Position numbers and translations under genes: made by a program. Positions 51,096 through 60,309 of a DNA stretch of 64,000 bases are shown here, piece by piece. Every line of letters begins with the position of its first letter. Position 1 is the first letter of the stretch. The notes under the pieces are model-generated. The model did no database searches, had not been told where the DNA came from, and saw only the letters and a list, made by a program, of their open reading frames with translations. Origin of the DNA: Alphaproteobacteria bacterium (GTDB lineage Bacteria; Pseudomonadota; Alphaproteobacteria; JANQMY01); the NCBI GenBank assembly GCA_028289425.1, contig JANQPL010000011.1, positions 62,001-126,000 of the forward strand. The letters are read 5' to 3'.

Positions 51096-51383
51096 TCAAT
51101 CTCTTCGCGTGTGGGGCCGCCGGGGTATCCACGCACGGTCTCCTCTAATACCGTCGTCGCGAATTAACAGCTCCACATTCTTGCTGCGGCACCGGCTGCA
51201 TTTGGCCGATGTGCGCACTTCATACAGCGTACAGTAACGGCCCCGTTCGTTCATGATCTTGACCACGTCCAGTCCCGAAAAATTCCCGCATTTAAGGCAT
51301 TCTATGTGCAGGCTGTAGCGATGCAGGAGATCGCCGAGCGTGCGCAGTTCGACTTTGTGAATGGTAAGGGAAAGCTCATCCAT
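51096..51383 (-). CDS. Small zinc-ribbon-like protein under a LexA box
   Basis: 95 residues from ATG 51383 (MDELSLTIHKVELRTLGDLLHRYSLHIECLKCGN). Two Cys pairs, CLKC and CSRC, about 30 residues apart, could bind one zinc. The tail is basic (RGDRAWIPRRPHTRRD). I recognise no family. The promoter has a perfect GTTC-N7-GTTC LexA site 5 bp before the ATG, so it is probably induced by DNA damage. Confidence 0.65.
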   Translation of the reverse strand: MDELSLTIHKVELRTLGDLLHRYSLHIECLKCGNFSGLDVVKIMNERGRYCTLYEVRTSAKCSRCRSKNVELLIRDDGIRGDRAWIPRRPHTRRD

Positions 51384-51387
51384 ATGA

Positions 51388-51402
51388 GAACAAAATATGA
51401 AC
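51388..51402 (-). promoter_or_regulatory. LexA (SOS) box, alphaproteobacterial type
   Basis: On the minus strand GTTCATATTTTGTTC, an exact match to GTTC-N7-GTTC, the LexA site established in alphaproteobacteria. It ends 5 bp from the ATG of the small zinc-ribbon gene; bound LexA would block transcription start. Confidence 0.7.
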
Positions 51403-51460
51403 AAAATGAATGAGTCAATCGACGTTTCCCGCGTCTAAGCCTCTGACTACAAGCAAAAAT

Positions 51461-58366: not shown

Positions 58367-59383
58367 ATGAGACTGTCCTCTCCCTTTTTGATTCTGATCG
58401 GTTGGATGTTGGTGGGGTGTGCCACCGCGCCTTCCATCGGTACCGGCGCTTCTTTCGAACAAGACCGGGCAGCGATCCTGGCTATGGCCGGCAATTACAA
58501 AGTCACCTTCGACTTCACGGAAACCGTTTCGTTCGTGGATGGATATGCGGTGAAGGAACCCTATGTAACGGGCGGCGATGAGGTGGTACGGGTGATCGCC
58601 GATGACGGCGGATTCATCAGTCTACAGCATATTCTCGTCGTGGGTGGCGACGACAAAATGCCGGTCAAACATTGGCGGCAAGACTGGATCTATGAGCCGG
58701 AGTTCGTGTTCGAGTTTGTCGGCCAAAACAGATGGCGCAAGCGTGATCTGTCGCCGGCAGAGCGGCGCGGAAAATGGGCACAACTCGTTTATCAAGTGGA
58801 CGATGGTCCACGTTATGCGGCCGTCGCTGCCTGGCAGCATGAGAACGGTGTGTCTGCCTGGACCTCGCCCCCAAGCTTGCGGCCCTTGCCACGGCGCGAT
58901 GCCACCACGCGCGACGATTACGACGCCATTCTGGCGGTCAACCGGCATGCGCTCACGCCCGCCGGCTGGGTGCATGAACAAGACAATTCAAAACTAATCC
59001 TGTCCGGCACGCCCCAAATCCTGGTGCGCGAAGTGGCGGTCAACACCTATGCCAAGTCGGACGATTTTGAGATTGTCGTGGCCGACACTTACTGGGCGGC
59101 GACCGAAGACTATTGGGCGAATGTGCGCGACATGTGGGCCAAGCTTGAAGCCGACTACGCGGCTTTCTCTTTGACCATCCAGGGCGAGCCTGAGGAAATG
59201 TACATGCAGATCCTGGAGATGGCGGACAAGGTGCAAAGCGGCGAAACATCCGTCGCCGAGGCTACCGAGAAAGCCCGGGAAATCATTGGCGATTACACCG
59301 TTACCGAGGGCCGGGCGACCGCAGGCGCGCCTGTCATCGAACCGATCAGGACGGTGTCGTCTCAACATTCCACGGCGCGGTAG
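58367..59383 (+). CDS. DUF6607 lipoprotein
   Basis: About 338 residues from ATG 58367 (MRLSSPFLILIGWMLVGCATAP), whose lipobox is LVGC; upstream in-frame ATGs at 58337 and 58361 are possible. The domain begins AGNYKVTFDFTETVSFVDGYAVKEPY and contains VKHWRQDWIYEP. It continues to EDYWANVRDMWAKLEADYAAFSLTI, which I recognise as DUF6607, often found beside TonB heme receptors. Function unknown. Divergent from the receptor; overlaps the convergent PEP-mutase-fold gene by 38 bp. Confidence 0.85.
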   Translation: MRLSSPFLILIGWMLVGCATAPSIGTGASFEQDRAAILAMAGNYKVTFDFTETVSFVDGYAVKEPYVTGGDEVVRVIADDGGFISLQHILVVGGDDKMPVKHWRQDWIYEPEFVFEFVGQNRWRKRDLSPAERRGKWAQLVYQVDDGPRYAAVAAWQHENGVSAWTSPPSLRPLPRRDATTRDDYDAILAVNRHALTPAGWVHEQDNSKLILSGTPQILVREVAVNTYAKSDDFEIVVADTYWAATEDYWANVRDMWAKLEADYAAFSLTIQGEPEEMYMQILEMADKVQSGETSVAEATEKAREIIGDYTVTEGRATAGAPVIEPIRTVSSQHSTAR

Positions 59384-60212
59384 CCGCTCCACCCAACATG
59401 CCGTTAATCTCGCCGAAACTCATGGCGTCGGCGGCGAATGTGAAGGTCCCCGCGGTTTTCATTTCTTGAGCCGCGGCGACCGCCATGCCGAACGCCTTAC
59501 GGAAGAGGGCGGAGCCCACGCTGATGCGGCGCACACCGGCCTTCGCCAGTTCGGCGACCGAAAACTGTGTGTTCGGTAAACCCACGACCACATTGACAGG
59601 GCGGTCGACGGAAGCGGTCACCGCGGCGATTTGATCGAGGCGTGTCAATCCGGGCGCATACAAAACATCGGCGCCGGCCTCTTGAAAGGCTTGCAGCCGT
59701 TTGATCGTGTCATCGAGGTCTGGTCGTCCGTACAGAAAGTTTTCCGACCGGGCCGTCAGCATGAACTTGAACGGCAATGACCGGGCAGCCTCCACCGCGG
59801 CACGCACGCGCTCTACGGCTTCCCCGAATTCGTAAATTGGCGAGGCCGTCGCAATCTTGGCATCTTCCACCGAACCGCCCACCAAACCGGCGTCGGCCGC
59901 CCGGCGGATCGTTTCGGCAACACCTTCAGGATCCTCGCCATAGCCGTCTTCCAGATCGGCGCTGATGGGCACCGGACAGGCCGCGCACAGCTCCCGCACA
60001 TGGGCCAGCACATCGTCACGGCCGAGCGTGCCTTCGGGCCGTCCTTGGGAAAACACAAAGCCGGCGCTGGTGGTGGCGAGCGCTTCAAACCCTTGACCCA
60101 CCAACATGCGGGCTGACCCTAAGTCCCACGGATTGGGAATGATGAAGGGTTCCGCCCGCGCGTGAAGCGCCTCAAAGGCTGCCGCTTTTTCCTGCTGACT
60201 GATCATCGACAC
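59346..60212 (-). CDS. Isocitrate lyase/PEP mutase family protein
   Basis: 288 residues, TIM barrel. SADLEDGYGEDPEGVAETIRRA (metal-binding DxEDGY), GGSVEDA and FMLTARSENFL match the PEP mutase/oxaloacetate-decarboxylase-like branch rather than isocitrate lyase. It probably cleaves or rearranges a small 2-oxo or C-C bonded acid. The last 38 bp overlap the DUF6607 gene on the other strand. Confidence 0.9.
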   Translation of the reverse strand: MSMISQQEKAAAFEALHARAEPFIIPNPWDLGSARMLVGQGFEALATTSAGFVFSQGRPEGTLGRDDVLAHVRELCAACPVPISADLEDGYGEDPEGVAETIRRAADAGLVGGSVEDAKIATASPIYEFGEAVERVRAAVEAARSLPFKFMLTARSENFLYGRPDLDDTIKRLQAFQEAGADVLYAPGLTRLDQIAAVTASVDRPVNVVVGLPNTQFSVAELAKAGVRRISVGSALFRKAFGMAVAAAQEMKTAGTFTFAADAMSFGEINGMLGGAATAPWNVETTPS

Positions 60213-60309
60213 ACCTATTGTAGATAGAACAAAACAAGAACATATGCGCTCCCGACATGTCTGTCAAAGCATGTTTCTGTCCGCGAACGCTTCGATCACG
60301 GACGAAACA

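Follow-up and report, generated by a model that had tools for sequence, protein, structure and literature searches.

Whether a small gene directly behind a LexA-type box is a member of the SOS regulon, and what its product might do, is the question raised by one locus in a 64,000-nucleotide stretch of an alphaproteobacterial genome (hereinafter the window; contig JANQPL010000011.1, assembly GCA_028289425.1). The gene occupies 51096–51383 on the minus strand, with its ATG at 51381–51383 as given by the frame translation, and is called as a CDS for a small zinc-ribbon-like protein of 95 aa from its open frame, a profile match and an AlphaFold2 model. The original prediction described a 95-residue protein with two Cys-x-x-Cys pairs and a basic tail, and these features are present. 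Specifically, the four cysteines are Cys29, Cys32, Cys62 and Cys65 (C29-x2-C32-x29-C62-x2-C65), the pI is 9.4, and the C-terminal tail reads RRPHTRRD. A P450 gene (51461–52720, Pfam) precedes the CDS on the same strand, and an MFS gene (plus strand, Pfam) is convergent with it.

The LexA-type box GTTCATATTTTGTTC lies at 51388–51402 on the minus strand; its assignment rests on the sequence itself, on seven further exact sites of the same refined type in the genome and on its retention upstream of relatives. Four bases (TCAT) separate the box from the ATG. Thus, the GTTC-N7-GTTC box predicted just before the ATG is found there, with an actual gap of 4 bp instead of the predicted 5 bp. A putative −35 element, TTGACT (51413–51418, minus strand), starts 16 bp upstream of the box. 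Its TTG recurs in relatives: among those with a GTTC-oriented box, 27 of 57 have a TTG element beginning 15 or 16 bp before the box, and TTGACT is probably the −35 element of the 95-aa gene. At the usual spacing from TTGACT, the −10 region would fall inside the box, so that bound LexA would block polymerase. Because the ATG is only 4 bp past the box, the transcript, from its presumed start site, is probably leaderless or nearly so. The box is equally close to the conserved MG-x-x-K start in two relatives, L196 (4 bp) and L153 (6 bp). An ATG stands just behind the box in some further copies as well, and in several a later start suits the conserved N-terminus better.

The bare GTTC-N7-GTTC pattern occurs at two sites in the window against 2.19 expected, and the whole genome has 136 sites where the reversed control has 225; being at or below chance level in both, it was discarded as evidence. 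A refined form with one mismatch, found at 27 genomic sites (many of them inside ORFs) against 39 for the reversed control, was discarded as well, and since it is no commoner than the control, weight is placed on exact sites only. These two results are what favours reading the window box as a chance GTTC-N7-GTTC, with the gene outside SOS control. The exact refined pattern GTTC-N3-TTTTGTTC argues otherwise, with eight sites in the 5.42 Mb genome, the window site among them, and none for the reversed control. All eight are at the start of a long ORF or at most 200 bp before it. The promoter geometry is also that of many relatives, and homologues are boxed far above the flank control (see below). 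A chance box is therefore very improbable.

The ORFs behind the exact sites were named by family models, several queries being cut to 330 aa. They include uvrC, a gene for DNA polymerase III alpha at 170 bp from its box, imuA (E 1.8e-19, below the model cut-off), and an NrdJ-like coenzyme-B12-type ribonucleotide reductase gene 94 bp after its box (L004; below the model cut-off with a 330-aa query). A PA0069-family radical SAM gene (L005) and a glyoxalase-superfamily gene that starts 16 bp after its box (L006) are also behind exact sites. The PA0069-family protein weakly resembles spore photoproduct lyase (E 1.2e-5). A second exact site, GTTCTTGTTTTGTTC, is in the window itself, at 60227–60241 on the minus strand, upstream of a PEP-mutase/isocitrate-lyase-superfamily gene (59346–60212, minus strand; methylisocitrate lyase model, E 3e-19, below cut-off). 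It would mark a separate gene of the same regulon as the 95-aa gene. The one lexA gene found in the genome has two variant boxes, and recA has a box with one mismatch.

In six other genomes, GTTC-N4-T-N-TGTTC occurs at 50 sites against 13 for the reversed control. Thirty of the 50 sites had loci; at one of these (L233) the position read was misplaced, though the entire locus entered the comparison. Fourteen of the 30 match reference proteins, namely recA (2), lexA (1), imuA (2), a dnaE-like protein (1), PA0069-family radical SAM (4), a PEP-mutase-like protein (1) and the CxxC family to which the window protein is related (3). The other 16 match no reference protein, and part of them are likely chance sites. 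One unmatched site resembles, by eye, the uvrA/ssb intergenic region. The PA0069-family radical SAM gene is boxed in four of the six genomes (L230, L235, L243 and L252), as it is in the genome of the window, and this recurrence suggests a conserved SOS gene. A relative 56% identical to the PEP-mutase-like gene of the window is boxed too, in another alphaproteobacterial genome (L246).

The window protein has no significant match in Pfam or in NCBIfam, where the single match (E 0.03) is far below cut-off. Searches with its sequence reached little. A single-protein scan of genome contigs gave no match, searches at family and order level (two genomes each) returned nothing except the window's own copy, and the plasmid matches by tblastn were weak (E 0.4–0.6 among the best 20 of 43). 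Across 385 genomes of the class, the single-sequence search matched 29 genomes, the window's own included, at E up to 0.05; judged by the CxxC pairs, several of these matches are clearly real and several are not. Profiles reached further. A 12-row profile of six boxed and six unboxed relatives (A1) found matches in 79 of the 385 genomes; a 10-row profile (A2) held nine boxed relatives and one unboxed. With a profile that included the window protein (A4), 15 of 398 genomes drawn from the phylum matched, all of the same class. In the reverse direction, a profile of 80 relatives from other genomes, built without the window sequence, ranked the window ORF first among 1274 window frames, with E 2e-5 against 0.21 for the next frame.

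The window protein combines this profile match with the C-x2-C ... C-x2-C pattern of the core family. It keeps all four cysteines at 20–34% identity to 36 core members. The core motifs FCWCNRC-x-H and RPxWP are absent, with ECLKCGN and RRPHTRR instead, and for this reason it is termed a divergent relative and not a core member. In the tree, which has too few columns to place it, the window protein is on a long branch. The box label is clustered on the tree: it changes 13 times, compared with 26.5 times in shuffled labels, and none of 500 shuffles was as low. From its sequence, the window protein is a divergent relative of an unnamed, mostly alphaproteobacterial family. Another divergent copy, L104 (G094), has its box 5 bp before an ATG. 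Ten core relatives searched against Pfam and NCBIfam gave weak matches only, the best being HypA (E 3.2e-4). The best E in a PHROGs search was 0.0084, and PADLOC models of anti-phage defence systems matched neither the window protein (0 families) nor any of 10 core members. In the literature searched, we found no description of the CxxC family; an earlier prediction of its box is possible (Erill et al. 2004; RegPrecise).

The relatives were retrieved by protein and not by box, and the box was then counted upstream of them. In the class survey, 61 of 99 places (counted by hand) were read, mostly the better-scoring ones, and 26 of the 61, the window included, have an exact box between 300 bp upstream and 15 bp into the match. 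The expectation is 0.008 per member, based on 11 boxes across 439,976 bases taken from these loci. The 26 boxed members are spread over 16 of 36 taxonomic families. The exact box is absent in the other 35 members, among them all four of f43 and all four of f30. A box is present in 17 of the 22 members that have C-x2-C-x-H and RPxW, and in 9 of the remaining 39, to which the window protein belongs (Fisher p 5e-5, uncorrected for relatedness).

Among core members the box is nearly constant. The core set was taken from public genomes by a tight core profile (best 80 of 100 loci), and 75 of the 80 loci have an exact box within 250 bp upstream, against 0.005 per 265-bp window in the flanks (11 boxes in 573,677 bases). 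Three of the five unboxed loci (L168, L192 and L207) have one-mismatch forms at one shared distance. The two surveys overlap in at least eight genes, and related genomes are not independent. In 18 of the 75 boxed loci the box points the other way, GAAC-N7-GAAC, with conserved flanking bases of its own; these loci are L164, L182, L191, L206, L209, L210, L212, L214, L215, L218–L220, L222–L224 and L226–L228, five of them titled SAR116. The commonest core-family box, GTTCTTGTTATGTTC, accounts for 22 of 76 boxes and is identical to GTTCttgttatGTTC, a likeness of box sequence alone. In Caulobacter, GTTCttgttatGTTC is reported to serve as the LexA box for two genes that mitomycin induces (PMC12700426). 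Conservation of the box in relatives, which the original prediction had proposed as its check, is thus seen in the core set and the wider class, and also in phage and plasmid loci (below). Judged from sequence, the 95-aa gene most likely belongs to the SOS regulon.

The window gene lies between the P450 and MFS genes, outside the neighbourhood of the core family. In the core family, crude frame calling placed shared ORF clusters upstream of the gene in 46, 42 and 36 of the 80 loci, and some cluster representatives appear to be in the wrong frame. By Pfam, one of the upstream representatives is DUF2794. The names YfgM, BamB and Der, given to core neighbours by eye, are not put forward here. A downstream ORF cluster is present in 11 of the 80 core loci (L149–L228), and its representative matches GcrA below cut-off. 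GcrA is a cell-cycle sigma-70 cofactor.

The sole same-genus genome searched showed neither gene nor box at the orthologous flanks, and protein and profile searches found no gene in it; this assembly is 97% complete and 10% contaminated, in 630 contigs. Relatives of the flanking MFS and P450 genes are present in the congener at 82–86% DNA identity, but they lie apart. The window copy thus represents a lineage-specific insertion, or else the congener has lost the gene or its assembly misses it. Its absence there, a third-position G+C of 0.64 against 0.75 and 0.80 for the neighbours, the loss of FCWCNRC and RPxWP, and the long branch would all suit a divergent relative, either decaying or newly acquired, in which the box survived but the job of the core family did not. 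The copy nevertheless retains all four cysteines, an open frame and the promoter geometry, and its fold is predicted with confidence; L104 provides a second divergent copy with a box 5 bp before an ATG. We regard such decay or recent acquisition as rather unlikely.

Small relatives of the family were also found in rhizobial phages, on rhizobial plasmids and on Bosea plasmids; the plasmid sample comprised 7 of 26 records plus Bosea. First-pass scores were E 0.03–0.3 for the phage matches and E 3e-5 for one Bosea plasmid match. With the core profile, five phage and plasmid relatives reached E 1.6e-11 to 1.4e-5 among window frames. An exact box is present within 300 bp upstream in 11 of 14 phage and plasmid loci, against 0.04 per window elsewhere in these loci (5 boxes in 42,346 bases). 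Specifically, six of eight plasmid loci are boxed, the two unboxed copies looking incomplete, and the five boxed phage records are all rhizobial and form two related groups (16-3, AP-16-3 and NV1.1.1; RHph_N28_2 and RHph_TM3_3_3). The one Synechococcus phage record with a relative has no box upstream of it. The box of the 16-3 group, GTTCTCATTTTGTTC, is of the same refined type as the window box. The boxed phage loci are L290 (Rhizobium phage 16-3, p035), L291, L293, L287 and L289, and their arrangement suggests SOS-timed expression of a phage gene. The gene is left unannotated in the AP-16-3 and NV1.1.1 records. In the RHph phages, the relative has a DNA ligase gene and an SNase-like gene in its vicinity.

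Like the core family, p035 of Rhizobium phage 16-3 is small, boxed and CxxC-containing, and matches the profile (E 2e-6 among 1279 frames). Unlike the core family, p035 and its kin have an expanded first knuckle and no core motifs, and their function is unannotated. These mostly boxed mobile relatives, together with the position of the window copy away from the core neighbourhood, could indicate a phage or plasmid gene at the root, with LexA as its trigger and the chromosomal copies domesticated. The core members, however, sit on genome contigs with recurrent neighbours (upstream cluster in 46 of 80, by the crude calling above) and have no PADLOC match. IMG/VR searched with the core motifs returned no core relative, although these patterns cannot reach divergent phage copies. 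Near the window gene, inspection by eye picked out neither an integrase nor a phage gene among the ORFs. A mobile root of the family is accordingly quite unlikely.

The fold of the family was predicted by AlphaFold2, with core pLDDT of 95–97 for the relative from Nisaea denitrificans and of 92–97 for the window protein; the alignment consists mostly of core members, so that the window model leans on them. Both models run strand, knuckle, strand, two helices, knuckle, strand, and the prediction for the window protein is thus a beta-ribbon with two CxxC knuckles, i.e. a zinc ribbon. Matches to this fold in the PDB are weak and mixed (archaeal Trf, HypA and MCM zinc domains). In the Foldseek search no PDB structure reached E 0.001, and the best VIA Z was 3.9. 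An unnamed viral predicted protein matches better than the PDB structures, with E 1.5e-4 and TM 0.56–0.59. A ribbon common to several proteins does not establish function. The claim of an unrecognised SOS gene is well supported by the conservation of the box; the accompanying suggestion of a DNA-binding or checkpoint protein is speculative, as the predicted fold bears only a weak resemblance to zinc ribbons that serve various functions.

Seven of 10 core members match HypA (PF01155) weakly (best E 3.2e-4), more than match any other Pfam family, and the loosely similar zinc ribbon of HypA is among the Foldseek matches. The protein might on this ground be a damage-induced metal handler, HypA-like or a zinc buffer, and not a partner of nucleic acid or polymerase. 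The window protein itself has no HypA match among Pfam matches at E up to 10, and the cysteine spacing of HypA, a nickel metallochaperone, differs from its own. With no structure match at E 0.001 either, a metal-handling role appears unlikely.

The box, promoter geometry, conservation and homology, all read from sequence, and the predicted fold are consistent with the following model, in which we infer LexA binding, induction, zinc binding and the target. LexA would sit on GTTCATATTTTGTTC, across the promoter, and keep the 95-aa gene repressed. DNA damage would lead to RecA-triggered cleavage of LexA and switch the gene on. In the small, basic product, four cysteines are predicted to hold a beta-ribbon together, probably around zinc, with two short helices between the knuckles. 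By analogy, it may be a damage-induced small adaptor for nucleic acid or for the transcription or replication machinery. Going further, we tentatively propose that the family is an old, overlooked SOS effector of alphaproteobacteria, its zinc ribbon, box and promoter staying together in many taxonomic families and passed to, or taken from, phages and megaplasmids. The direct target of such an effector would be RNA polymerase, the replisome or damaged nucleic acid, and its effect a pause in growth, the guidance of repair or a service to phage induction; the window copy would be a diverged form with a retuned target. This proposal is somewhat short of an even chance.

A family lacking a curated model, whose LexA-type box recurs across 16 taxonomic families as well as in copies from phages and plasmids, outweighs the single window gene in interest. 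Despite the attention that the SOS response has received, the CxxC family is named by no Pfam or NCBIfam model. A box kept so consistently implies that the gene matters upon DNA damage. Among cultured strains, Nisaea denitrificans, Thalassobaculum litoreum, Tistlia consotensis and Hwanghaeella grinnelliae have boxed relatives; with these strains and Rhizobium phage 16-3 at hand, induction and deletion tests are direct.

Among known systems, the top structural match is Sulfolobus translation recovery factor Trf (6htj), whose zinc-ribbon part aligns over 44 residues with Z 3.9 and rmsd 2.7; the Foldseek E of 0.03 is within the range of unrelated zinc ribbons. TraR and DksA are small zinc-finger RNA polymerase factors, also phage-borne, that can reprogramme transcription. 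The family resembles them in consisting of small zinc proteins (here predicted) that are also found in phages. Other than that, the two differ: the cysteine spacing of TraR/DksA is not that of the window protein, neither model contains a long coiled coil (the window model has short helices and strands), and there is no Pfam match to them. Caulobacter SidA, one of the small SOS-induced regulators, shares with the window protein a small size and an alphaproteobacterial LexA box. SidA, however, inhibits division, is membrane-associated and is much the smaller of the two, whereas the window protein has CxxC pairs and looks soluble. Compared with the named genes of the alphaproteobacterial LexA regulon, the window product stands apart in having no significant Pfam or NCBIfam match. 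The likeness to that regulon is in the promoter box, GTTC-N7-GTTC, which uvrC and imuA also have in this genome and recA, lexA and imuA have in others.
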